From contig CAIUSV010000092.1 in assembly GCA_903901915.1 (NCBI GenBank), forward strand, positions 1 through 40,585: a stretch of 40,585 bases of DNA, written 5' to 3'. Shown here piece by piece: positions 8,510-40,441 of the stretch. Positions within the stretch are counted from its first letter, which is position 1. Every line of letters starts with the position of its first letter. This stretch comes from an uncultured Rhodospirillaceae bacterium. GTDB lineage: Bacteria > Pseudomonadota > Alphaproteobacteria > Rhodospirillales > Magnetospirillaceae. The notes below the pieces were generated by a model. It saw only the letters and a program-made list of their open reading frames with translations, was not told the DNA's origin and did no database searches. The position numbers and the translations under genes were made by a program.

Positions 8510-10996
8510 TCAAGGCTTGGCGGCGGCCAGGACCGGCGGCACCCGCCCCAGGCGCAGAAACTCGGTCATCTCGGCGGCAACCATGGGGTGGGCGAACAGG
8601 AAGCCCTGAACCATGTCGCAGCCATAGCGCGCCATCGCGGCAAACTGCTGCTCGGTCTCGATGCCGGGCGCGATAACGCCAAGATGAAGACCACGCGCCA
8701 CCGCGACGATGGCGGTGATGATTTCGCTGCCGTCACCCTCGGTCGCGGCGTTGCGCACGAAGCTCTGATCAATCTTGAGCGAACGGGCCGGCAACCGGCG
8801 CAGGAAGGCGAACGACGAGTAGCCCGAGCCGAAATCGTCAATGGAGACGCCGACATCCATGGCCATCAGCCGGGCGAAGATGGCACCGACGTCCTGGCTC
8901 TTGTCGGTGACGCACCCTTCGGGAACATCCAGTTCAAGCGCGTCGGGCGGCAGCCCCGACCGCTCCAGCGCCGCAGCCACCGTTTCGATCAGATCGGGCG
9001 CCCGCAACTGGCGGGCCGACAGGTTGATGCCGATGCGCAGATCGGCAAAGCCCTGGTCGACCCATTCCCGGGCCTGGCGGCAGGCGGTATCGAATACCAC
9101 CTCGCCAATGGCCAGAATCAGCCCGGTCTCTTCCGCCAAGGGCAGGAACTGGTGCGGCATGACCAGTCCGATTTCGGGATGGCGCCAGCGCAACAGCGCC
9201 TCGACGGCGGTCACCCGGCCGGTACGCGCATCGAAGATCGGCTGGTAGTGCAAGATGAATTCCTGCCGGTCGAGGGCATGGCGCAGCGCACTTTCCAAGG
9301 CAAGGCGCTCGAACGCCTGGGCATTGACCGTCTCGGAGTGGAAGCGGCAGGCGTTGCGCCCCTGATGCTTGGCCCGGTACATGGCGGCATCGGCCAACTT
9401 GACCAGCGATTGCGGGTCGCCGGCATCGGCGGGATAGAGGGCGACGCCAATGGATGAACTGATGCGGGCCTGACTGCCCTGAAGGTCGAAAGGATCGGCC
9501 AGCGTCGCCAGGATCTTATGAGCGACCACGGCACCATCGCGCGCCTCGGTGATGTCTTCGAGGATGACGGTGAACTCGTCACCGGCCAGACGGGCCACGG
9601 TGTCCCCCTGACGCACGCAGGCGCTCAGCCGCTCGGCCACTTGCTGAAGCAGGAAATCGCCGGCCAGATGCCCCAACGTGTCATTGACCTGCTTGAAGTA
9701 GTCGAGATCGATGAACAGCAGCGCCACCAGGGTCTGATTGCGGTTGGCACGGGTCAGGGCGCGCGACAGGCGCTCCTGGAACAAAGTGCGGTTGGGCAGC
9801 CGGGTCAACGGATCATGGTTGGCCTGATAACTCAGGCGTTCCTCGTCCTCCTTGCGCGAGGTGATGTCCGAGAACACCGCGACGTAGTTGGTAAGCCGGT
9901 CGCTTTCATCGCGCACGGCGGCGATGTTCAGCCACTCGGCGAACATCTCGCCGCTTTTGCGCCGGTTCCAGATTTCGCCCTGCCACTTGCCGGTCTGGTT
10001 CAGCGACAGGAACATGCGCTCGTAGAATTCCGGGGTATGGCGCCCCGACGCCAGAATCTTGGGTGTGTGCCCCATCACGTCGGCGGCGGCAAAGCCGGTG
10101 ATGTCGGAGAAGGCTGGATTGACATGGATAATGCGGCGCTTCTCGTCGGTGACGAACAGCCCCTCGCCGGTGTTCTCGAACACCGTGGCGGCCAAACGCT
10201 GATGTTCCTCCAACCGCTTTTTCTCGGTGACATTCTCGACCACCGCCACGGTATAGCGAAGCTCGCCGCCGGGATCACGCACGGCGGTGACGGTCAGATG
10301 TGCCCACACCGAGGCGCCATCCCGCCGCAGATAGCGCTTGGTCAGGGTGTAGCTGTCGATGCGTCCCGCCGCCATGTCATCGCGCAAACCGTTGTGATTG
10401 GCGATATCATCGGGATGGGTGATCTGGCGGAAGGTAAGGCGCTGCAACTCGGCGTCGCTGTAGCCGACCATGGCGCAGAACGCCGGATTGCAGTGAACGA
10501 ATCCGCCGCCGGGCTCGGCCAGCACCACGCCGATACCGGCGTTGTCGAACAGGGCGCGAAAGCGTGCCTCGCTGCCGCGCAGTTCGGCATCGGCCAGGGA
10601 ACGACCGATGGAATAGCGGATCGACCGCCGCACCAGCTCACCGTCACCTTGACCCTTGACTAGATAGTCCTGGGCGCCCCGACGCAGCGCCTCCAGGGCC
10701 AGCGCCTCGTCGGCGGTGCCGGTCAGCACCACCACCGGCACCGACGGACTGGCGGCGCGCAGACGCGCCAGCGTCTCCAGGCCGAAGGAATCCGGCAACG
10801 ACAGGTCAAGCAGCACCACGTCGATGGGCTTGGCCTGCAACACGGTCAAACCCGTGGCCAGATCTTCCGCCTTGTCCACGGCGCACGGGTGCCCGGGATC
10901 CTCGTGCAGATAGATTTCAACCAGACGCGCATCGCCGGGGTTGTCCTCGATGACGAGAACCGCCAGGGGGCGATTACCGGATGCCATGTCCGTCAT
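8510..10996 (-). CDS. receiver-PAS-PAS-GGDEF-EAL c-di-GMP signalling protein
   Basis: An 828-residue cytoplasmic protein. In order: receiver (about 10-125, with [12 protein letters not shown] and phospho-acceptor VLLDLSLPDS), two PAS domains (about 145-265 and 270-390, e.g. FENTGEGLFVTDEKRRIIHV and a PAC-like FSDITSRKEDEERL), GGDEF (about 400-560) and EAL (about 570-815). The cyclase signature reads RLAGDEFTV, an AGDEF variant that can still be active in the family. The phosphodiesterase residues are present: AVEALLRWRHP, NLSARQL, DDFGSGYSS, KIDQSFV, GIETEQQ and the late glutamine in VQGFLF. One odd point is APGIET in place of the usual AEGVET. It starts 11 bases after the stop of the CheY-like gene, suggesting a two-gene operon in which both receivers may share a kinase. 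Net cyclase or phosphodiesterase activity cannot be told. Confidence 0.9.
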   Translation of the reverse strand: MTDMASGNRPLAVLVIEDNPGDARLVEIYLHEDPGHPCAVDKAEDLATGLTVLQAKPIDVVLLDLSLPDSFGLETLARLRAASPSVPVVVLTGTADEALALEALRRGAQDYLVKGQGDGELVRRSIRYSIGRSLADAELRGSEARFRALFDNAGIGVVLAEPGGGFVHCNPAFCAMVGYSDAELQRLTFRQITHPDDIANHNGLRDDMAAGRIDSYTLTKRYLRRDGASVWAHLTVTAVRDPGGELRYTVAVVENVTEKKRLEEHQRLAATVFENTGEGLFVTDEKRRIIHVNPAFSDITGFAAADVMGHTPKILASGRHTPEFYERMFLSLNQTGKWQGEIWNRRKSGEMFAEWLNIAAVRDESDRLTNYVAVFSDITSRKEDEERLSYQANHDPLTRLPNRTLFQERLSRALTRANRNQTLVALLFIDLDYFKQVNDTLGHLAGDFLLQQVAERLSACVRQGDTVARLAGDEFTVILEDITEARDGAVVAHKILATLADPFDLQGSQARISSSIGVALYPADAGDPQSLVKLADAAMYRAKHQGRNACRFHSETVNAQAFERLALESALRHALDRQEFILHYQPIFDARTGRVTAVEALLRWRHPEIGLVMPHQFLPLAEETGLILAIGEVVFDTACRQAREWVDQGFADLRIGINLSARQLRAPDLIETVAAALERSGLPPDALELDVPEGCVTDKSQDVGAIFARLMAMDVGVSIDDFGSGYSSFAFLRRLPARSLKIDQSFVRNAATEGDGSEIITAIVAVARGLHLGVIAPGIETEQQFAAMARYGCDMVQGFLFAHPMVAAEMTEFLRLGRVPPVLAAAKP

Positions 10997-30063: not shown

Positions 30064-31407
30064 TCAGAACCTTAGGACAAAGACCGCGCCACCGCCATCC
30101 GCCGTTTCAACCCTTACCGTTCCATCGTGCAGTTCCATCGCCCGTTTGACGATAGACAGCCCCAGGCCAGCTCCGCCATCCTTGCGACGATTTCGCCGCC
30201 AGAAACGCTGGAATACCAGATCGCGTTCCTCGGCGGGAACGCCCGGGCCGTGATCGCGGACACGAATTTCCGGATGCTCGCCGCCCAGCACCGCGATTTC
30301 CACCGCCGTGTCCGGCAAGGTATGGGTAAGGGCGTTTTCCACCAGATTATTGATCGCCTGGCCGATGGTTTCGGCGCAGCCGTGGACGACGACGCCGTCT
30401 TCGCCGGTTCGTACAATGGACTTTCCCACCGCCATCGCGGTGGGACGCAGGTAGCTCGCGATGGCGTCGGCGAGAGTCCCGAGATTGACCCGAGAGCGCT
30501 CTTCGCCCGCAAGCCCCTCCATTTCGGCGGCTCGCAACAACTGCGTCACCAGTCGCGACAGCGTCGCGACATCGACTTCGAGTTCCCGGCGCAATCGCCC
30601 CGGATCAAGGGTTTCGACACGGGCGAGCAAGACGGCCAAGGGCGTTTTCAGTTCATGGGCGGCGTTTTCCAGGAACTCCTTCTGTTCACGGAAGGCCTTA
30701 TCCAGTCGTGACAGGGCGCTGTTGACCGCTTCCACCAACGGAAGAATCTCCGCCGGAATCCCCCGGCTGATGACCCTGCCGCCGAGCGCCCGCGGGCTGA
30801 TGGAGGTGGCGGATTCAGACGCTGCCAGCAGCGGCCGGAATCGGCGCTTCATGCGCAGCAGGGCGAAACCGATCTGGATGAAGAACAGCGGCACCAACAA
30901 CCACCCGGCGCGAACCATGAAGCCACTGACAATCTCATCCATCAGCACGTCGCGGTGATTCATGTCCTCGGCGACTTGGATCCATACCGATCTGCCATCC
31001 ACTTGTGTCTTGGTCGACACGCCCCACAGCAGCATGCCGGGAGAACTGAGCTTGAAGTGTCCGCGAGACTCCGAGAAGGAGGCATCCGGCCTGATCAGCG
31101 CCTGCGGCGGGTCAAGCGAGGACAGCAGGGGATGGCCCCCGTCATCGAGAATGGCGTAGGAATAGCGGCCATAGGAGGACGAGAACCGAGCCATGTCACC
31201 CGCCGACAGAGTCAGTTTCGGTCCATCGGCCAACCTCAGGTGGCCCGCCAGTTCCAGCGCCGCCTCGTGCATATCCCGGGCTTCCAGTTCTTCCACGGTG
31301 GCATCCAGCCGCTCCAGCACCACGGCGAACAAGGCCCCGATGGCGATCGCCTGGATGACCAGAAGGTCGATAGCGAGAGAACGCAGCAGCGACGGCCCCT
31401 TAGGCAT
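30064..31407 (-). CDS. sensor histidine kinase (QseC/TctE type)
   Basis: A 447-residue inner-membrane kinase. Membrane helices lie at about 12-31 ([20 protein letters not shown]) and 163-185 ([20 protein letters not shown]), with a ~130-residue periplasmic sensor between them. HisKA has the phospho-acceptor His251 in [12 protein letters not shown]. The ATPase part has the N box [12 protein letters not shown]1 DHGPGVP, F box FQRFWR and G2 [11 protein letters not shown]. It overlaps the upstream response regulator gene by 8 bases and is the cognate partner. The kinase is divergently linked to a porin and RND efflux system, so its likely input is an envelope stress or exported compound, possibly a metal ion. 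The ligand is not visible. Confidence 0.92.
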
Positions 31408-32077
31408 CCGGTTTCACCAGAGTGTACCCCATGCCCTTCTCCGTCCGGATGGTGACGTCGGCTCCAGCCTGCTGTAGCCGTTTACGCAGCCTGTGAACGT
31501 AGACCTCCAGGGCGTTGGCGCCAACTTCGCTGTCGAATCCGAAGACGGCATTGTCGATGGAGGAACGCGGCACCAACCGTCCTGGTTGGCGAAGGAGAAG
31601 CCGCAGCACCGCCCGCTCGCGCCGGGGAAGATCAACGCGGATTCCGCCGACATCAACCTCCTGCGTCGTTTCATCCATCCCCAGATTGCCACAGACATAA
31701 CGGTTGGACAGAAGGAGGGGGGGCCGCCGCAACAGCGCCCGGACGCGGGCGATCAGTTCCGCCATGGCGAACGGCTTGGTCAGGTAGTCGTCCGCCCCGG
31801 CATTGAGACCGGCCAGACGATCCTCCAGGCGTTCACGGGCGGTGAGGATCAGGACGGGAACGGCGCTGACCGACTGGCGCAGGTGCCGCAGGAAAGACAG
31901 TCCGTCGCCATCGGGCAAGCCGAGATCGAGAATGATGGCGTCGAATTTCGCGACAGCCTGGGCCGCCGTCGCGTCGTCAAGGGAACCGACAGGGTCGACG
32001 ACGAAATTCTCGCGGCCAAAGGCTTCGACCACGAGACCGGCAAGGCGCTCATTATCTTCGACCAATAGCAGCCGCAA
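31400..32077 (-). CDS. OmpR-type response regulator
   Basis: A 225-residue transcription factor. The receiver has LLLVEDNERLAG, phospho-acceptor Asp51 in AIILDLGLPDGDG, ILTARE and the YLTKPF lysine. The C-terminal winged helix has LPRRERAVLRLLLRQPGR and LEVYVHRLRKRLQQAGADV, the standard recognition helix, and ends [14 protein letters not shown]. OmpR-type regulators bind direct repeats of about 10-11 bp. Four such repeats (YGAAA-N6-YGAAAG) stand in front of genes of this locus and are the likely targets. The ATG at 32077 is 9 bases after the small periplasmic protein gene, and the 3' end overlaps the kinase start by 8 bases. Confidence 0.93.
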   Translation of the reverse strand: MRLLLVEDNERLAGLVVEAFGRENFVVDPVGSLDDATAAQAVAKFDAIILDLGLPDGDGLSFLRHLRQSVSAVPVLILTARERLEDRLAGLNAGADDYLTKPFAMAELIARVRALLRRPPLLLSNRYVCGNLGMDETTQEVDVGGIRVDLPRRERAVLRLLLRQPGRLVPRSSIDNAVFGFDSEVGANALEVYVHRLRKRLQQAGADVTIRTEKGMGYTLVKPDA

Positions 32078-32086
32078 CGCTGAACC

Positions 32087-32446
32087 TCATCGTATCGGTA
32101 AGGGCCGATCATAGTCGGCATCCAACCAGCTTCGTACAATCCACATCTCGGCCCGGGCCTCGTCAACGGCGCCGCCGCGACACAGGTCGAGGCTGCGGTC
32201 GAGCCGGCGACGCATGGACTCGTATTCGGCGGCGGAATATTGATGCCCATGGTTGTCCTTGACCATGGCACCGCCACCCGCTTTCCGCGGCTCGACCCAG
32301 GACCAGATTTCCCGCCACTCCCTGCGAAGCCCCTCCACCCCGGCGGCGCACTCCGGAGCCGGGGGCAGTTCCGCCGCCGCCGGCCCAACCGGGGCGACGA
32401 GGACAACCAAGACGGCCATGACGACACCACGGATTCTGGATTTCAT
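32087..32446 (-). CDS. small exported two-cysteine protein, first of a pair
   Basis: A 119-residue protein of unknown function. ATG at 32446 gives a signal peptide (MKSRIRGVVMAVLVVLVAP, cleavage near PAAA-E); TTG at 32470 is an alternative. The mature protein is about 90 residues with only two cysteines, in PECAAGVEG near its start and DLCRGGAVDEA in its second half, which could pair. It is related in layout to the protein at 40136-40441: both have C-x3-V near the N-terminus, a W, a His, then SM-x6-L-x4-LC-x2-G-x2-(D/E)EA and (V)R(S/T)WL. It is the first gene of the two-component operon, 9 bases before the regulator. A role as periplasmic accessory or signal-tuning protein for the sensor or pump is inference. 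Confidence 0.75.
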   Translation of the reverse strand: MKSRIRGVVMAVLVVLVAPVGPAAAELPPAPECAAGVEGLRREWREIWSWVEPRKAGGGAMVKDNHGHQYSAAEYESMRRRLDRSLDLCRGGAVDEARAEMWIVRSWLDADYDRPLPIR

Positions 32447-32514: not shown

Positions 32515-32532
32515 CCTTTCATCAATATTTCA
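32515..32532 (-). promoter_or_regulatory. direct-repeat operator A (two-component operon)
   Basis: Minus strand: TGAAA-TATTGA-TGAAAGG, repeats 11 bp apart, 68 bases before the small protein ATG. A TAACAT -10-like hexamer starts 16 bases after the second TGAAA begins. This matches sites B, C and D in the same locus and suits an OmpR-type regulator. Confidence 0.55.
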
Positions 32533-32570
32533 GCGAAACCGGCTTTCGGCGGCCGGACCATCGGCATGCA

Positions 32571-32588
32571 TGTAAGCCGAATGAAAGG
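32571..32588 (+). promoter_or_regulatory. direct-repeat operator D (porin)
   Basis: TGTAA-GCCGAA-TGAAAGG, 11-bp period, first half with one mismatch, 47 bases before the porin ATG. GTAAGCCGAATGAAAGG is nearly identical to the core of site B (GAAAGCCATGTGAAAGG). Confidence 0.55.
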
Positions 32589-32635
32589 TAAGGCTGATAA
32601 CCCCGGACTTAGCCTCGAAAACGAATGGAAACCTC

Positions 32636-34012
32636 ATGCGCCATATGCCGTTGACGATCATGCTGGCGGCGGGGGTGGCCATGATGTCGGGACCCGCCGT
32701 CGCGGACGACGCCATCCCGGCGAAGGGATTCTGGGACCGCGACACGCTGACCGGCGATTGGGGCGGTCTGCGTTCATCGCTGGATGAGGCCGGTCTGAAA
32801 CTGGGGGGAGTCTATACCGGCGAGGTACTGGGCAATCCGTCGGGCGGCCTGCGCCGGCGGGCAGTGGCGGAAGGCCTGTTGGAAATCGATATCGACGCCG
32901 ATTTCGACAAGCTGATCGGATGGCAGGGCCTGACCTTCCATACCTCGCTGTTCCAGATTCACGGCCGCTCCATGAGCGCCAATTTCCTGTCCAACCAATT
33001 CACCGTCCGCGACATCGAGGCGGCGCCGGCCGCGCGCATCTGGGCGATGTGGCTGCAACAGGCGTTTTTGGATGATCTGGCATCGCTGCGTATCGGTCAG
33101 ATGCCCGAACAGGAAGAGTTCTGCGTCTCCTCCAACGGGGCCTATTTCATCAACGGTACTTTCGGCTGGCCCATCGGCTTCGCCGCCAACATGCCGTCGG
33201 GCGGTGGCGCCTATCCCCTGGCCATGACCGGCGCCAGGATCAAGGTCCAACCCACCCCCGAGCTTGCCGCCCTGGTGGCGATGTTCAACGGCGATCCGGC
33301 ACCGACGATCTACAGCAACAATCCAGATCCCCAGCGGCGCAATCGCTACGGGCTCAACTTCGACACCAACCAGCCGCCGCACTGGTTCGGCGAAGTGCAG
33401 TACGGCATCAACCAGGGCAAGGACGCCGAGGGTCTGCCCGCCATGTTCAAGCTGGGCGGCTGGTATCACAATGGCCGCTTCCTCGATCAGCACTACGACA
33501 ACCAGGGCGTTTCGCTGGGCAGCGCCGCCACCAACGGCATCGCCAGGACCTATCGCGGGTCTTGGGGCGTCTATGGCGTGGTGGATCAGATGCTGTGGAA
33601 GAAGCCCGGCACCGAGGATGGCGGCATCGGGGCCTTCACCCGCCTGTTCGCCAACGCCGAAGACCGTTCGGCCATGCCCTATTACGGCGAGATCGGCCTG
33701 ACCTGGAAGGGCATGCTCGAAGGCCGTGACGACGACGTCGCCGGCATCGCCGTCGGCTATGGCCGGATGAGTCCCGGCCTCGCGGCGCGCGACCGCGATT
33801 CCGTCGCGCTAGGAGGCGGCAACACCACCGTGCGCGATTTCGAGGCGGTGGTGGAACTGTTGTACCGGGCGCAGATGACGCCATGGCTCACCCTGGTGCC
33901 CAACGCCCAATACATCGCCCATCCCGGCGGCGGCATCGGCTATCCCGACCGCCCCGCCGTCCGTATCCCCGACGCCGCCGTGCTGGGCCTGCGTGCCGTG
34001 CTCAAGCTGTAG
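32636..34012 (+). CDS. OprB-type outer membrane porin
   Basis: A 458-residue outer-membrane beta-barrel of the carbohydrate-selective porin family. A signal peptide (MPLTIMLAAGVAMMSGPAVA) is followed by the family opening DTLTGDWGGLRSSLDEAGLK. Further family marks are GVYTGEVLGNPSGG, LRIGQMPEQEEF, KLGGWYHNGRFLDQ and the terminal strand VLGLRAVLKL, which ends without extra residues as barrels do. OprB proteins admit glucose and other small solutes, but this copy heads an efflux locus, so it may import a metal or organic solute or simply be co-regulated. It is divergent from the two-component operon with operator D upstream. The adaptor gene follows after 72 bases that contain operator B and a hairpin. 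Confidence 0.87.
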   Translation: MRHMPLTIMLAAGVAMMSGPAVADDAIPAKGFWDRDTLTGDWGGLRSSLDEAGLKLGGVYTGEVLGNPSGGLRRRAVAEGLLEIDIDADFDKLIGWQGLTFHTSLFQIHGRSMSANFLSNQFTVRDIEAAPAARIWAMWLQQAFLDDLASLRIGQMPEQEEFCVSSNGAYFINGTFGWPIGFAANMPSGGGAYPLAMTGARIKVQPTPELAALVAMFNGDPAPTIYSNNPDPQRRNRYGLNFDTNQPPHWFGEVQYGINQGKDAEGLPAMFKLGGWYHNGRFLDQHYDNQGVSLGSAATNGIARTYRGSWGVYGVVDQMLWKKPGTEDGGIGAFTRLFANAEDRSAMPYYGEIGLTWKGMLEGRDDDVAGIAVGYGRMSPGLAARDRDSVALGGGNTTVRDFEAVVELLYRAQMTPWLTLVPNAQYIAHPGGGIGYPDRPAVRIPDAAVLGLRAVLKL

Positions 34013-34022
34013 CGACCAAGCG

Positions 34023-34040
34023 CGAAAGCCATGTGAAAGG
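34023..34040 (+). promoter_or_regulatory. direct-repeat operator B (adaptor-pump-OMF)
   Basis: CGAAA-GCCATG-TGAAAGG, 11-bp period, 44 bases before the adaptor ATG and just after the porin stop. An AATACT -10-like hexamer lies 10 bases downstream. It suggests a second regulated start inside the operon. Confidence 0.55.
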
Positions 34041-34058
34041 CTGCCGGCGCAATACTGC

Positions 34059-34078
34059 CCCCTACAGACTTGTAGGGG
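34059..34078 (+). other. perfect hairpin in the adaptor leader
   Basis: CCCCTACA and TGTAGGGG form an 8-bp stem with loop GACT, 6 bases before the adaptor ATG and directly ahead of GAGGA. No T-tract. It may be a 5'-UTR stem controlling translation or RNA decay between porin and pump, or a protein-binding dyad. Confidence 0.5.
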
Positions 34079-34084
34079 TGAGGA

Positions 34085-35350
34085 ATGGAAAACCAAGTTT
34101 CCACGGAGCGGACAGTCCGCAAAATTCCAGCCCGAACCCAATGGATGCTGCTGGCGGCGGCGGCGATCCTTGCCGCGACCGCCATGTCAACCATTCCCGG
34201 GGGAGCGCACCAATCCACCGCCGATATTGCCGCCGCCGAGCCGCCGCCGCCGGGCAGCTTCCGCGCAACCGAGGCGCAGTGGGGCGGACTGACCATCGAG
34301 CCCGTGCGACGCATGGCCTTCCGTCCCGTCGAGGAAACCGACGGCAAGATCGCCACCAACGACGACACCACCACCCCGGTGTTTTCCCCCTATTCCGGGC
34401 GGGTCACCCGAATCTTCGCCAAGGCCGGTGACATGGTCGTGGCCGGCGATCCCCTGCTGGCGGTGGACGCGTCGGAATTCGTCCAGGGACAGAACGATCT
34501 GGTGGCGGCGCTGGCCCAGGTCGGCACCGCTCGCGCCCAGTTGAAGCTGGCCGAGGCGGCGGAGAAACGACAGCATGATCTGTTCGATAGCGGCGGCGGA
34601 GCGCTCAAGGACTGGCAACAAAGCCAGTCCGACCTGACCAGCGCCCGTGGCGCGGCGCGCACCGCCGAGATCGCGTTGGCGGCCAGCCGCAACCGCCTGC
34701 GCATCCTGGGCAAGAGCGACGCCGAAATCAGCGCCATAGAAACCGCTCCGGACTCTCATCGGATCAGCCGCGAGGCGATCATTCACGCCCCTATCGGCGG
34801 CACCGTGGTTCAGCGCCAGGTCGGTGTCGGCCAGTACATCACCAGCGGCTCGGGCGGAGGGGCGAATCCCGTCTTCGCCATCGGCGACCAGTCGACGGTT
34901 TGGCTGGTGGCCAATGTCCGCGAGGCCGACGCCCCCCTGATCCGGGGCGGCGAAGCGGCGGAAGTGGCCGTTCTGGCCTTTCCCGGCCGGGTATTCCGGG
35001 CCCGGATCGGCTATGTCGCCCCCGCCATCGACCCGACGACCCGACGGTTACCGGTACGAGCGGTGGTCGATAACCAAGACCATGCCCTGAAACCCGAGAT
35101 GTTCGCGCGGTTCCGCATCGCCACCGGCGAGGAAAGCAATGCGGTCGGCGTTCCGGAATCGGCGGTGGTGTTCGAGGGGGACACCGCTCGGGTCTGGATT
35201 GCGGGTAACGACCGCACCCTCTCCCTGCGTCACATCGTTCCCGGACGTACCGCCGCGGGAATGATGGAAGTGGTGTCGGGATTGGAACCCGAGGAAAAGA
35301 TCGTCACCGGCGGCTCGCTGTTCATCGACCGCGCCGCCAAGGGAAGCTGA
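34085..35350 (+). CDS. RND efflux periplasmic adaptor (CzcB/CusB type)
   Basis: A 421-residue membrane-fusion protein. An N-terminal anchor (WMLLAAAAILAATAMSTI) leads to a periplasmic body. The barrel-sandwich halves are seen in VFSPYSGRVTRIFAKAGDMV and IIHAPIGGTVVQRQVGVGQY, with a helical hairpin between (LVAALAQVGTARAQLKLAEA to AEIALAASRNRLRIL). The beta-barrel has VWLVANVREADAPLIRGGEA, and the membrane-proximal end has IVTGGSLFIDRA. It links the pump to the outer-membrane factor. The hairpin is moderate in length. No metal-binding His/Met tail is seen. ATG 34085 has GAGGA just upstream. The pump gene starts 12 bases after its stop. Confidence 0.9.
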   Translation: MENQVSTERTVRKIPARTQWMLLAAAAILAATAMSTIPGGAHQSTADIAAAEPPPPGSFRATEAQWGGLTIEPVRRMAFRPVEETDGKIATNDDTTTPVFSPYSGRVTRIFAKAGDMVVAGDPLLAVDASEFVQGQNDLVAALAQVGTARAQLKLAEAAEKRQHDLFDSGGGALKDWQQSQSDLTSARGAARTAEIALAASRNRLRILGKSDAEISAIETAPDSHRISREAIIHAPIGGTVVQRQVGVGQYITSGSGGGANPVFAIGDQSTVWLVANVREADAPLIRGGEAAEVAVLAFPGRVFRARIGYVAPAIDPTTRRLPVRAVVDNQDHALKPEMFARFRIATGEESNAVGVPESAVVFEGDTARVWIAGNDRTLSLRHIVPGRTAAGMMEVVSGLEPEEKIVTGGSLFIDRAAKGS

Positions 35351-35362
35351 GGAAACGACACC

Positions 35363-38300
35363 ATGGATGAGGTCGTCGCCTTCGCCCTTCGCCAACGTGT
35401 ACTGATGGTTGTGCTGCTGGCGGTCATGATCCTGGCGGGAACCGTCGGGTTTCTTCACCTCAATATCGAGGCATATCCCGACCCGGTGCCGCCGATGGTC
35501 GATATCATCACCCAGGATTCCGGCCAGTCCGCCGAAGAGATCGAACGCTATATCTCGATCCCCATCGAAATTCAGATGGCGGGCATCCCCCATGTGGCAT
35601 CGATCCGCACCATCTCGCTGTTCGGGTTGTCGGACGTAAAGGTCCAGTTCACCTATGATCTCACCTACCGCGAGGCCGAACAGTGGGTGATCAACCGCCT
35701 GGGCCAGATGCCGCCGCTTCCCGGCGGCTCGCAGCCGCAGCTTTCTCCCACCAGCCCCATCGGCGAGGTATTCCGCTATCGCGTCGTCGGTCCGCCCGGC
35801 TATTCGATTGCCGATCTCAAGACCATCCAGGATTGGATCCTACAGCGCCGCTTCAAGGCGGTGCCTGGGGTAATCGACGTCAACGGCTGGGGCGGAAAAT
35901 CCAAGACCTTCGACGTCACCGTCGATCAGTCGCGGTTGGCCGCTTACGGACTGACCCTGCCCCAGGTGTTGCAGTCCATCAATAACGCCAACATCAACGT
36001 CGGCGGCCAGACGATCAATATCGGCCAGCAATCGGCGGTGGTGCGAGGAATCGGCCTTATCCACGGCATCGATGACATCCGGCGAACCGTGCTTGGCGCC
36101 ACCAACGGATCGCCCATCCTGCTGGGGGACGTGGCGTCGGTGACGGTGGGCAACAAGCCCCGGCTGGGAATCGCCGGACAGGATGGCGACGACGATATCG
36201 TCGAAGGCATCGTGCTGATGCACCGGGGAGAGAAAAGCGCCCCCACCATCGCCGCCGTAACCGCGGAGGTGGCGAAAATCAACGCCTCCGATCTGTTGCC
36301 GCCAGGTGTAAGGATCGAGCGGATCTACGACCGCAGCGACCTGATCCGCGTCACCACCAGAACCGTGATGGAAAACATGGGGGTCGGCATCGTGCTGATT
36401 TTTCTGGTGCAGTGGCTGTTCCTGGGCAATCTGCGTAGCGCCCTGATCGTCAGCGCCACCATTCCCTTCGCCCTGTTCTTCGCCGTACTGATCATGCTGG
36501 TGCGGGGCGACTCGGCCAATCTGCTGTCGGTCGGCGCGGTGGATTTCGGGCTGGTGGTGGATGCCAGCGTGATCATGGTGGAAAACATCTTCCGCCACCT
36601 GACCGAGGCGCCCAAGCCACTGGAACGCCCTCAGCCCCGCGATACCAAGGCGCGGCTGCTCGGGCATCTCGGCACCATCTATTCCTCGTCCATGGAGGTC
36701 AACCGGGCAATCTTCTTTTCGGCGGCCATCATCATCGCCGGATTTCTGCCGCTGTTCACCCTGTCGGGGGTCGAAGGCCACATCTTCGGCCCCATGGCTC
36801 AGACCTACGCCTACGCCATCCTCGGCGGCCTGATCGCCACCTTCACCATTTCGCCGGCGCTCGGCGCCCTGTTGTTCGCCTCCGGCACCGCCACCGAACA
36901 CGAGACTATCGTGGTGCGCGTCATGCGCCGCTTCTACCGGCGGCTTCTACGCTTTGCCCTAGCCAACCGCATTCTCACCCTGGGCGGGGCCGGACTGCTG
37001 ACGGCATTGGCGTTAGTGGCCGTCAATCTCCTCGGGCTGGAGTTCCTGCCCCATCTGGAGGAGGGCAACATGTGGATCAGGGCCGCCCTTCCCGACTCGA
37101 TCTCGCTGGAAACCGGCAATCCGTCCGTCAATGCCATGCGGCGATACATCAAGTCCTTTCCCGAGGTGGAAACGGTGATCTCGCAGCACGGCCGCCCCGA
37201 CGACGGCACCGACGCCACCGGATTTTTCAACGCCGAGTTCTTCGTTCCGCTGAAACCCTTCGGCACCTGGCCCAAGGGAACCGACAAGGAAGCCCTGATC
37301 AAAGAAATGTCTGACGGACTGGCCGATCGCTTTCCCGGCGTCCAGTTCAGCTTCTCGCAATACATCGAAGACAATGTCGAAGAGGCCGCCTCGGGGGTGA
37401 AAGGCCAAAACTCGGTCAAGCTGTTCGGCAATGATCTGCAAAGCCTGGAAACGGCCGCCAACCGCATCCGAGATGTCCTGGCCTCGGTCCCCGGGATCGC
37501 CAACGCCGAGGTCTCCAGCGCCCTGGGGCAGCCGACGGTCAGGATCGACATCGACCGCGCGCGCGCCGCCCGCTACGGCCTCAATCCCGGCGACATCAAC
37601 GCTACCGTTCAGGCCGCCATCGGCGGGCAGGCCGCCGGCAACCTCTATGAAGACAGCAGTGATCGCAATTTCCCCATCATGGTTCGCCTCGCCCCCGAAT
37701 ATCGCACCAGCCTGGACGCCATTCGCCACCTGACCATCGGCGCGCCGGCCCAGGGCGGCGGGATCATCCAGGTGCCGCTCGATGACGTGGCCGACGTCAA
37801 GTTGGTGAGCGGAGCGTCCTTCATCTATCGCGAAAACCAACAGCGCTATGTCCCGGTGAGGTTCAGCGTCCGCGGCCGCGACCTCGGCAGCGCCGTGCTC
37901 GAGGCCCGCGAGAAGATCGCCCGCGAGATCAAGATGCCGCCCGGCTACCGGCTGGAATGGGCCGGCGAATTCGGCGAGTTGCAAGACGCCATCAGCCGCC
38001 TGATCGTCGTGGTACCGCTGGGCCTCGCCCTGATCGCCCTGCTGCTCTACGTCAATTTCGGTACCCTGACCGACACCCTGCTGGGCGCCAGCGTCATGCC
38101 GCTGGCCCTGGTCGGCGGCATCTTCGCCCTGGCGGTAACCGGAACACCGTTCAGCGTATCGGCGGCCATCGGCTTCGTCGGCCTGTTCGGAACCTCGGTG
38201 ATGGGCGGCATCATCGTGCTGTCTTGCTACAACGATCTGATCGACCGGGGCGTGGAGCGCCGCCAGGCCATCCTGTCCGCCTGCGAAACACGTCTGCGCC

Positions 38301-38527
38301 CGGTGGCGATGACCTGCATCGTCGCCTGCGTCGGCCTGCTGCCCGCCGCCGTCTCCACCGGCATCGGCTCGCAGGTGCAAAAGCCGCTGGCGCTGGTGGT
38401 GGTGGGCGGCATCCTGCTGGCGCCGTTTCTCATCCTGATCGTCCTGCCGGTTCTGATCGACGCGTTCTCGCGTCGCCGCGAGAAGAGCGGCGATGTCGGC
38501 GCTGTTCACTCCTTGCCGGCGGAGTAA
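35363..38527 (+). CDS. HME-type RND efflux pump (CzcA/CusA family)
   Basis: A 1054-residue inner-membrane pump with the usual duplicated layout: helix 1 (LMVVLLAVMILAGTVGFL), a large periplasmic loop, helices 2-6, a second loop, and helices 8-12. The heavy-metal-efflux proton-relay motif is complete in helix 4, AVDFGLVVDASVIMVEN, with Asp394, Asp400 and Glu407 spaced as Asp402/Asp408/Glu415 of CzcA. Other marks are IEAYPDPVPPMVDIITQ, QLSPTSPIGEVFRY and GLEFLPHLEEGNMWIRAALP. These place it in the CzcA/CusA branch, normally for Zn, Co, Cd, Cu or Ag export. The actual substrate cannot be fixed from sequence, since no metal-binding partner gene accompanies it. The outer-membrane gene begins 6 bases downstream. 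Confidence 0.92.
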   Translation: MDEVVAFALRQRVLMVVLLAVMILAGTVGFLHLNIEAYPDPVPPMVDIITQDSGQSAEEIERYISIPIEIQMAGIPHVASIRTISLFGLSDVKVQFTYDLTYREAEQWVINRLGQMPPLPGGSQPQLSPTSPIGEVFRYRVVGPPGYSIADLKTIQDWILQRRFKAVPGVIDVNGWGGKSKTFDVTVDQSRLAAYGLTLPQVLQSINNANINVGGQTINIGQQSAVVRGIGLIHGIDDIRRTVLGATNGSPILLGDVASVTVGNKPRLGIAGQDGDDDIVEGIVLMHRGEKSAPTIAAVTAEVAKINASDLLPPGVRIERIYDRSDLIRVTTRTVMENMGVGIVLIFLVQWLFLGNLRSALIVSATIPFALFFAVLIMLVRGDSANLLSVGAVDFGLVVDASVIMVENIFRHLTEAPKPLERPQPRDTKARLLGHLGTIYSSSMEVNRAIFFSAAIIIAGFLPLFTLSGVEGHIFGPMAQTYAYAILGGLIATFTISPALGALLFASGTATEHETIVVRVMRRFYRRLLRFALANRILTLGGAGLLTALALVAVNLLGLEFLPHLEEGNMWIRAALPDSISLETGNPSVNAMRRYIKSFPEVETVISQHGRPDDGTDATGFFNAEFFVPLKPFGTWPKGTDKEALIKEMSDGLADRFPGVQFSFSQYIEDNVEEAASGVKGQNSVKLFGNDLQSLETAANRIRDVLASVPGIANAEVSSALGQPTVRIDIDRARAARYGLNPGDINATVQAAIGGQAAGNLYEDSSDRNFPIMVRLAPEYRTSLDAIRHLTIGAPAQGGGIIQVPLDDVADVKLVSGASFIYRENQQRYVPVRFSVRGRDLGSAVLEAREKIAREIKMPPGYRLEWAGEFGELQDAISRLIVVVPLGLALIALLLYVNFGTLTDTLLGASVMPLALVGGIFALAVTGTPFSVSAAIGFVGLFGTSVMGGIIVLSCYNDLIDRGVERRQAILSACETRLRPVAMTCIVACVGLLPAAVSTGIGSQVQKPLALVVVGGILLAPFLILIVLPVLIDAFSRRREKSGDVGAVHSLPAE

Positions 38528-38533
38528 CGTGGA

Positions 38534-40018
38534 ATGAAACGCCTCTTCCTTCCCTTGGCCCTGGCGCTGACAGCGGCCGGATGCGTTGGCCCCGATTTCA
38601 CGCCGCCGACTGCTCCGGGGATCGCGACCTACACCGCCGATCCGCTTCCCGAGACCACCGCGGCGGCCGACGTCTGGGGTGGCCAGATGCAGCGCATCGC
38701 CGCCGAACGCGACATTCCCGGCCAGTGGTGGAGCCTGTTCCACTCGCCCGCCATCAATGCCCTGATCGAACGGGCGCTCGTCGCCAACGCCGACCTCAAG
38801 GCCTCCCGGGCAGCCTTGCGCGTGGCCGATGAAAACGCCTTGGCCCAGGCAGGGGGCTGGTGGCCGACCCTGGCCGGCGGTTTCGGCGCCGCCCGCCAGA
38901 AGACCCTGGCTTCGGCCGGAACCAACTCGGCGGCGGGGGGACACAATTCGGTCTACAACCTCTACACCGCCCAGGTGGGAATATCGTACGCGCCCGACAT
39001 CTGGGGCGGCATATCGCGACAGGTGGAGAGCGCCGACGCCCAGGCCGAGGCCGCCCGCTTCCAGATGGAAGCGGCCGCCCTGACATTGACCACCAACGTC
39101 GCCCTCGCGGCGATTCAGGAGGCCAGCCTGCGCGGCCAGATCGAGGCGACCGGGGAAATCGTCGCCCTGGGCGAGCAATCGCTGGACATTCTGCGCAAAC
39201 GCTTCGCCCTGGGCCAAGTGGCCCGCGCCGACGTTCTTGCCCAGGAAGCAGCGGTGGCGCAACAGCGGCAGTCGCTGCCGGGTTTACATCGTCAGTTGGT
39301 GCAACAGCGGAACCTGTTGGCGGTGCTGTGCGGTACCCCTCCCAGCGAACCACCGGCCGAGACGTTCGAGTTGTCCGCCATCGACCTGCCCGAGGAATTG
39401 CCGGTCAGCCTGCCGTCGAGGCTGGTGGAACAGCGTCCCGATATCCGCGCCGCCGCCGCCAACCTTCACGCCGCCACCGCCCAGGTCGGGATCGCCATCG
39501 CCAATCGGTTGCCGCTGATCAACATCACCGCCGGCCAAGGGTCCTCCGCCGCCTTCACCGATGGCAAACTCGGGCTGTTCACGCCGGGCACCGGCTTCTG
39601 GGCGCTGAGCGGAAACCTGACCCAGACCCTGTTCGACGGCTTCAGTCTGATGCACCGCCAGCGCGCCGCCGAAGCGGGATTGGATCTGGCCGCCGCCCAG
39701 TACCGCAGCGTGGTCCTCGGCGCATTCCAGAACGTGGCCGACGTGCTGACCGCGCTACAGCGGGACGCCGAAACCCTGGCGGCAGCAGTCGAGGCCGAAC
39801 ACGCCGCGGCGGGCAACCTCACCATCACCCGACGGCAATTGGAACTGGGGGCCGTCGGAACGCTTACCCTGCTGAATGCCCAGCAAGCCGAATTGCAAGC
39901 CCGGCTTTCCGTGGTCCAGGCCCAAGCGGCACGATTCGCCGACAGCGTCGCCTTGTTCCAGGCGCTGGGTGGCGGCTGGTGGAATCGCCCCAAGCTCGCG
40001 GATGCCGAACAGCCCTAG
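38534..40018 (+). CDS. NodT-family outer membrane efflux lipoprotein
   Basis: A 494-residue TolC-like channel. The signal peptide MKRLFLPLALALTAAGCVGP has an AAGC lipobox, with Cys17 lipidated. Mature marks: GPDFTPPTAP, QWWSLFHSPAINALIERAL, NADLKASRAALRVADENAL, and the internal repeat LVEQRPDIRAAAANLHAATA with FDGFSLMHRQRAAEAGLDLA. This matches the NodT/OprM type that pairs with RND adaptors. It begins 6 bases after the pump gene and completes the tripartite exporter. The C-terminal LFQALGGGWW is the standard end. The next gene is 117 bases away with its own operator. Confidence 0.93.
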   Translation: MKRLFLPLALALTAAGCVGPDFTPPTAPGIATYTADPLPETTAAADVWGGQMQRIAAERDIPGQWWSLFHSPAINALIERALVANADLKASRAALRVADENALAQAGGWWPTLAGGFGAARQKTLASAGTNSAAGGHNSVYNLYTAQVGISYAPDIWGGISRQVESADAQAEAARFQMEAAALTLTTNVALAAIQEASLRGQIEATGEIVALGEQSLDILRKRFALGQVARADVLAQEAAVAQQRQSLPGLHRQLVQQRNLLAVLCGTPPSEPPAETFELSAIDLPEELPVSLPSRLVEQRPDIRAAAANLHAATAQVGIAIANRLPLINITAGQGSSAAFTDGKLGLFTPGTGFWALSGNLTQTLFDGFSLMHRQRAAEAGLDLAAAQYRSVVLGAFQNVADVLTALQRDAETLAAAVEAEHAAAGNLTITRRQLELGAVGTLTLLNAQQAELQARLSVVQAQAARFADSVALFQALGGGWWNRPKLADAEQP

Positions 40019-40053
40019 ACGCACCCGATCCCTTCCTGGCCAAAAGATGACCG

Positions 40054-40071
40054 CGAAAGGTGCCCGAAAGT
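40054..40071 (+). promoter_or_regulatory. direct-repeat operator C (last small gene)
   Basis: CGAAA-GGTGCC-CGAAAGT, 11-bp period, 64 bases before the ATG at 40136. A CAGAAT -10-like hexamer starts 16 bases after the second CGAAA begins, the same spacing as at site A. Confidence 0.5.
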
Positions 40072-40135: not shown

Positions 40136-40441
40136 ATGAATAGGTTGGTTATGGTCGCCTGTGGTGTGGCCCTCGTCTCCATCGCGACACCGGCGGGGGC
40201 CAGCCTGTCATGCCGGGACGAGGTCGCTGCCGTTCAAGCAAACTGGAATCCCAACCCTTATCCCGGCGCCAAGCCCTTTCAACCCCGGGCGAGAGGCGAA
40301 AAGGACCCCCATGAGGTCATGATTTCCAGCATGAGGCTGCAACTCAAAAAGGCGGACGAACTTTGCAAGGAGGGCAATGACGAAGAGGCATTGCTTGAGC
40401 TAAATCCGGTACGGACGTGGCTGGAGCGACACCAGAACTAA
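40136..40441 (+). CDS. small exported two-cysteine protein, second of a pair
   Basis: A 101-residue protein of unknown function. The signal peptide is MNRLVMVACGVALVSIATPA, cleaved near GAS. The mature protein has two cysteines, in LSCRDEVAAVQ and ELCKEGNDEEA, placed like those of the protein at 32087-32446. The C-terminal helix (MRLQLKKADELCKEGNDEEA then VRTWLERH) aligns with its counterpart in SM..L....LC..G...EA and R(S/T)WL. The middle differs: a Pro-rich NWNPNPYPGAKPFQP stretch. GGAGGA is 8 bases ahead of the ATG. It ends the RND locus and has its own copy of the direct-repeat operator, so it is probably co-regulated with the pump. The right IS copy sits 9 bases after the stop. Confidence 0.75.
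   Translation: MNRLVMVACGVALVSIATPAGASLSCRDEVAAVQANWNPNPYPGAKPFQPRARGEKDPHEVMISSMRLQLKKADELCKEGNDEEALLELNPVRTWLERHQN

Follow-up and report, generated by a model that had tools for sequence, protein, structure and literature searches.

What do four similar direct repeats have in common at an efflux locus that fills one end of this contig? The window, the whole stretch of 40,585 bases analysed here from an uncultured Rhodospirillaceae bacterium, holds the whole locus in its last 10.5 kb: a small protein (smA), a response regulator (RR) and a sensor histidine kinase (HK) are encoded on the minus strand, and the genes on the plus strand run from a porin through the adaptor, pump and outer-membrane factor (OMF) of a resistance–nodulation–division (RND) system to a second small protein, smB (Table 1). 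The initial annotation had proposed that these repeats, here called boxes 1–4, mark one regulon of an OmpR-type regulator. The proposal is supported by conservation, by distant boxes of the same layout and by ranks under a model (R1) built outside the window; binding itself is what we infer from these. Judging from the DNA and its relatives, we consider it probable (roughly 0.8) that the boxes are operators of the local OmpR/PhoB-family regulator, which would act as a class II activator of smA-RR-HK, of the porin gene and of adaptor-pump-OMF, and less surely of smB. The system is of a known kind, namely the OmpR/PhoB-family regulon built on 11-bp direct repeats.

The repeats are real. The exact motif YGAAAN6YGAAAG occurs three times in the window (boxes 1, 3 and 4), where 0.06 matches are expected, and this count was reached in none of 100 shuffles. 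Box 2, with the first half TGTAA, is one mismatch from YGAAA; with one mismatch allowed the window has five matches (1.15 expected; five reached in 1 of 100 shuffles), the fifth of which, at 10546, lies outside the locus. Each box is laid out as a 6-bp half, a 5-bp spacer and a 6-bp half with a period of 11, as in a tandem direct-repeat operator with similar half-sites in the same orientation about one helical turn apart. All four are intergenic and oriented to the next gene, and their distances to the start codon are 68, 47, 44 and 64 bases for boxes 1–4. The positions and the range of 44–68 bases given in the initial annotation are thereby confirmed, with three boxes exact and the porin box at one mismatch. 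Its statement that each repeat points to the next gene also holds for all four, except that the first gene on the minus strand is smA, followed by the regulator and kinase genes.

Among 30 porin places and 10 small-protein places in family genomes, the whole locus was found only once, in a genome of the same genus (G049). The regulator, kinase, porin, adaptor, pump and OMF are 78–88% identical there, and smA is 60% identical. When 317 genomes of the order were searched with the kinase, at most five candidates being scored per genome, G049 came first at 78% and the next stood at 52%. The three shared boxes are identical to their G049 counterparts at 46 of 54 bases (15/18, 15/18 and 16/18 for boxes 1, 2 and 3), whereas the rest of the ungapped intergenic alignment has 103 identical columns of 199 (p = 4e-6). 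In the second-half heptamers 19 of 21 bases agree. The porin was a poor handle for the locus: it has a match in 31 of 55 family genomes, and the whole locus stood only at G049 among the 30 places fetched of 48 listed apart from the window's own.

We then asked how specific the boxes are in the 4.1-Mb genome, with genes called by our own codon-composition script. The exact motif has six matches; three fall in the locus, two within called genes, and the last is not followed by a called gene on its strand. A pattern fitted to the boxes, YGNMAKN5TGAAAG, which shows specificity and not discovery, has 14 matches (control 7), of which the three in the locus are intergenic and 10 of the 11 others lie inside called genes. 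The initial annotation had named two observations that would speak against it, repeats unconserved in a relative that keeps the locus and many equal matches at random in the genome; what we see is conservation of all three boxes with gene counterparts in G049 and non-locus matches that fall largely in coding DNA. The sequence-only model R1, made from ten sites outside the window (three from G049 and seven distant), places boxes 1, 3, 2 and 4 first to fourth in the window with 15.6, 14.6, 9.1 and 6.9 bits, the next match having 4.8. With 150 of 942 genome candidates scored, boxes 1 and 3 take ranks 1 and 2. The genome match at rank 3 (C65:20212-20242) was not counted as a target, having no called gene next on its strand, and another (C46:46240) falls at the 5′ end of a long gene call. 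Boxes 1 and 3 stand out genome-wide, box 2 rests on its conservation and box 4 is weak.

Boxes of the same layout precede the adaptor gene at many related pumps in Alpha- and Betaproteobacteria. The pump scan, covering the best 80 of 326 relatives, gave 79 loci; with the window and L051 these make 81 sequences, of which 69 have a usable adaptor upstream region, and the test set is the 67 that remain without the window and L051. Two loci with identical regulators (L107 and L168) are treated as one in any count. A matrix from the seven boxes of the window and G049, applied to the 67 unseen regions at a score of at least 10, matches 17 on the gene strand and 2 on the other, against 8 of 67 for the backward matrix and 4.2 for shuffles. 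With a half-site matrix and free spacing, pairs of period 11 on the gene strand reach a score of 12 in 13 of 36 regulator-near loci (a regulator at least 39% identical is encoded within 4 kb) versus 2 of 31 others (p = 0.003); other periods from 7 to 20 give at most 2/36 forward and 4/36 reverse. At score 10 the period-11 counts are 16/36 versus 3/31, and other periods reach up to 8 forward and 9 reverse. The 13 loci represent about five regulator groups (Gallionella type, four; Sterolibacterium type, three; sphingomonads, four; L107; L129). Examples, each with its hexamer, are TGCAAG-CTTTA-TGAAAG with TATTGC (L092), CGTAAG-GTTGA-TGTAAG with TAGGCC (L135, L148) and CGTCAG-GTTGA-TGTAAT with TAGGTT (L126). 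Across 98 loci (1.77 Mb), a pattern composed once these examples had been seen, and therefore no test, occurs 30 times. Of these matches, 24 lie immediately before the adaptor gene, two at the other boxes of G049 and four elsewhere; the mirrored pattern occurs three times.

The distance from box to hexamer is likewise shared. Of the 17 distant matches, 10 have a TA, not itself covered by the matrix, at precisely 16 bases from the start of the second half, against a background of 2.1%; the binomial p of 3e-13 would hold only for independent loci, which these are not. No -35 hexamer of at least 4/6 at the proper spacing occurs at any of the 25 sites examined, whereas one is present at 13% of random places, and the -10 hexamers at these 25 sites match 1 to 5 of 6 positions. 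By sequence, then, the sites have the form of a class II activated promoter, in which the activator site replaces the -35 element at a fixed distance from the -10. PhoB offers a precedent for an activator box that substitutes for the -35 (parts seen of PMC3348028).

Since the box tends to occur where a regulator gene is close by, the neighbouring regulator is the natural candidate. It belongs to the OmpR/PhoB family, with PF00072 and PF00486 above cut-off, and its nearest solved structure is BasR/PmrA. In a tree of 48 regulators, a 96/95 branch places 42 on the side of Escherichia coli BasR (39 from the loci, including the window and G049, plus L168–L170) and three from other pump loci with CusR and PhoB; BasR and PhoB themselves form long branches. 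In the recognition helix, residues corresponding to PmrA Asn188, Val192 and His195 are retained, and arginine stands at the place of PmrA Asn196, which is that of PhoB Arg201, a guanine contact (residue roles from the sections seen of PMC4660055 and PMC3973317). This arginine fits the G of the half-site, yet it does not discriminate, because it is found in every one of a set of 42 regulators that includes the three CusR-side ones.

We compared the boxes with the operators of known systems. The PmrA box of enterobacteria has two 6-bp half-sites and a 5-bp spacer, bound head-to-tail (as given in the available part of PMC3973317), and PmrA (BasR), also of the OmpR/PhoB family, falls on the same side of the tree as the regulator here. 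The layout is the same, but the PmrA half-sites are CTTAAG/XTTAAT and those here YGWMAG. Allowing up to three mismatches, PmrA-type sites number 22 in the window where 35 are expected, which is no enrichment. The regulator is 41% identical to BasR and scores 188 bits with the PmrA model PRK10643, below the cut-off of 330, so that it does not qualify as an equivalog. Direct repeats of 11 bp are bound by many OmpR/PhoB-family regulators (PMC4415409, in part), among them PhoB, whose TGTCA-like half-sites lie over the -35 region (PMC4415409 and PMC3348028, both in part). However, the regulator is 33% identical to PhoB and lies on the other side of the 96/95 branch, its putative targets are a pump and a porin, and the Pho-box pattern CTGTCAT-N4-CTGTCAT has three window matches at up to three mismatches (1.82 expected). 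The AgrR/CusR/CopR-type regulators of heavy-metal efflux (HME) RND pumps resemble the present system in placing a metal-type pump under two-component control, and type II activation with autoregulation has been proposed for AgrR in the portion seen of PMC7380067. The AgrR core site given there is an inverted repeat, ATKACANNNNTGTMAT, in contrast to the direct repeats here; at up to two mismatches it occurs twice in the window (1.04 expected) and nowhere in the locus. The regulator also scores 165 bits with the CusR/CopR/SilR model TIGR01387, below the cut-off of 279. Caulobacter UzcR was considered as a further relative, but the part of PMC12864828 at hand gave no motif letters to compare.

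If the local regulator does act on the boxes, an envelope or metal signal would trigger the kinase, and the phosphorylated regulator would bind each box head-to-tail in the place of the -35. Polymerase would then be recruited to the -10 about 16 bp past the start of the second half (class II activation), giving joint expression of smA-RR-HK (by autoregulation), of the OprB porin, of adaptor-pump-OMF and perhaps of smB. What the sequences show is the boxes with their orientation and conservation, the promoter geometry and the link to a nearby BasR-branch regulator gene; we infer the binding, activation rather than repression, the phosphorylation and the signal; that the signal may be a metal is a guess from the pump family alone.

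Several observations weigh against this scheme. A -10-like hexamer is present 16–17 bases after the start of each second half, as the initial annotation had said, but the hexamers are weak, boxes 1–4 matching TATAAT at 4/6, 2/6 (porin), 4/6 and 4/6. The one-mismatch motif does not discriminate in the genome (133 matches against 104 for a backward control), R1 did not return boxes 2 and 4 among the genome candidates scored, and the R1 ranking is partly circular because its distant sites came from a window-trained matrix. Box 4 has the low R1 score given above and no orthologous counterpart in G049, where a different reading frame follows the OMF gene. Among distant loci, the strict score is passed by only the 13 of 36 regulator-linked loci, a high-scoring pair also occurs in two of the loci with no detected regulator gene, and when the matrix test is relaxed to score 7, period 7 nearly equals period 11 (33 versus 38). 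The Reyranella/Enhydrobacter-type group (19 of the 36 loci) adds none at score 12 and passes only with its own variant half-sites, but in its 19 aligned intergenic regions every row has TCAGG, GTAA 11 bases on in the repeat frame, and then TA.

How far do these points favour another explanation? That only boxes 1–3 are operators of the local regulator and box 4 is a chance match is a doubtful but quite possible outcome. Box 4 is the lowest of the four under R1, neither smB nor a box is present at that place in G049 (no smB match was found in the fetched region), and chance matches do arise, as the other exact genome matches in coding or gene-poor DNA illustrate. On the other side, box 4 is an exact match in the right orientation, in the 117-bp gap before smB, with CAGAAT at offset 16, and smB is a paralogue of smA, the gene behind box 1. 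Binding of the boxes by a different OmpR/PhoB-family regulator, such as PhoB, instead of the neighbour is rather unlikely. Repeats of this period do serve many such regulators, as noted above, and box 2 is overlapped on its opposite strand by a three-mismatch match to the Pho box; however, the box accompanies BasR-branch regulator genes (13/36 loci with one nearby, 2/31 others), which, like a Pho-box count of three against 1.82 expected, speaks for the neighbour.

Three further explanations concern what the repeats do, or whether they do anything. A protein bound over the promoter region can also block polymerase, and the boxes do cover that region, so the regulator might be a repressor at these operators; we hold this to be quite unlikely, for none of 25 sites has a usable -35 and such promoters would be weak on their own, and the fixed spacing from box to -10 also argues against repression. 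The same fixed spacing might suggest the promoter of an alternative sigma factor and no operator at all, but the halves begin 27 and 16 bases before the hexamer, unlike a -35/-10 pair with its standard distance of 22–24, and two similar halves would be unexpected there, which makes this very improbable. Finally, we find it hardly credible that the repeats are random matches selected by eye: although the one-mismatch motif is common in the genome, the shuffles, the conservation in G049 and the out-of-sample matches with their geometry all stand against it. Activation by the local regulator is the reading we prefer.

Table 1. Boxes and genes of the locus (window coordinates; offsets in bases from the start of the second half)
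Feature	Position	Strand	Description
Box 1 (putative smA-RR-HK promoter)	32515..32532	-	TGAAATATTGATGAAAGG; TGAAAT-ATTGA-TGAAAG; -10-like TAACAT at offset 16
Box 2 (putative porin promoter)	32571..32588	+	TGTAAGCCGAATGAAAGG; TGTAAG-CCGAA-TGAAAG; hexamer TAACCC at offset 16
Box 3 (putative adaptor-pump-OMF promoter)	34023..34040	+	CGAAAGCCATGTGAAAGG; CGAAAG-CCATG-TGAAAG; -10-like AATACT at offset 17
Box 4 (smB), candidate, weakest of four	40054..40071	+	CGAAAGGTGCCCGAAAGT; CGAAAG-GTGCC-CGAAAG; -10-like CAGAAT at offset 16
Sensor histidine kinase	30064..31407	-	HisKA, HATPase_c
Response regulator	31400..32077	-	OmpR/PhoB family (Response_reg + Trans_reg_C); TTG start
smA	32087..32446	-	small protein, signal-peptide-like start, two Cys; smB homologue
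Porin	32636..34012	+	OprB family
RND periplasmic adaptor	34085..35350	+	CusB/HlyD type
RND pump	35363..38527	+	CusA/CzcA family (HME); TIGR00914, 878 bits, cut-off 701
Outer-membrane factor (OMF)	38534..40018	+	NodT type; TIGR01845, 374 bits, cut-off 210
smB	40136..40441	+	small secreted-type protein, smA homologue

In the locus, the gap between smA and the regulator gene is 9 bases, and the regulator and kinase genes overlap by 8. The pump is assigned to the HME-RND family, by sequence and as a family assignment only, with TIGR00914 above its curated cut-off. Neither smA nor smB matches a Pfam or NCBIfam family; they are paralogues with 31% identity (E = 5e-8). Their family consists of small secreted-type proteins, none with a Pfam match above cut-off, and two cysteines (C33 and C89 of smA) are common to 12 aligned members. 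Relatives of smA/smB in the same genus and family are encoded near other HME-RND pumps (L040–L047, L049). The same repeated element stands at both contig ends (1–141 and 40445–40585), beginning a few bases from the smB stop codon, and has 11 near-identical genome matches (94–100%), many at contig ends; its reading frame resembles an IS481-type transposase.

The distant loci hold some further features. A second RND pump, 63–65% identical to that of the window, lies within about 3 kb of the first in L101, L118, L119, L121–L124, L128, L132, L133, L137, L138 and L149. In three Reyranella-type loci (L121, L132 and L138) a second plus-strand repeat, TGTCAG-N5-TGTAAC, stands before the conserved box. 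L170 has a two-box regulon in another family, with near-identical boxes (TGTAAGGTTCGTGTAAG) at L170:2682 and L170:11933, one upstream of an adaptor-pump operon and the other next to the divergent regulator gene. Boxes visible by eye in L098, L088 and L127 are in no count. An unsupervised motif search of 50 upstream regions was dropped; it returned the same block on both strands, which reads as conserved coding DNA.

Among open-licence PMC papers we found no description of this half-site, of its link to the pump clade or of the contrast with the AgrR inverted repeat, which is a weak negative. Beyond the locus, we give a little less than even odds to a wider proposal, namely that a distinct two-component branch, with a BasR-side regulator and a box close to YGWMAG-N5-YGWAAG, governs an HME-RND pump clade across Alpha- and Betaproteobacteria, standing in for AgrR/CusR-type inverted repeats, and that here it may also have drawn in the OprB porin and the two-cysteine small secreted proteins as possible periplasmic metal binders or kinase feedback sensors. 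If this is true, a metal-type RND pump clade whose regulators fall below the CusR/CopR model cut-off would have a readable control code, so that its regulons would be predictable from sequence. A BasR-side regulator with a PhoB-like half-site would likewise be a case for testing half-site choice against the recognition helix. For this organism, it would point to one response shared by the porin and the two small secreted proteins.

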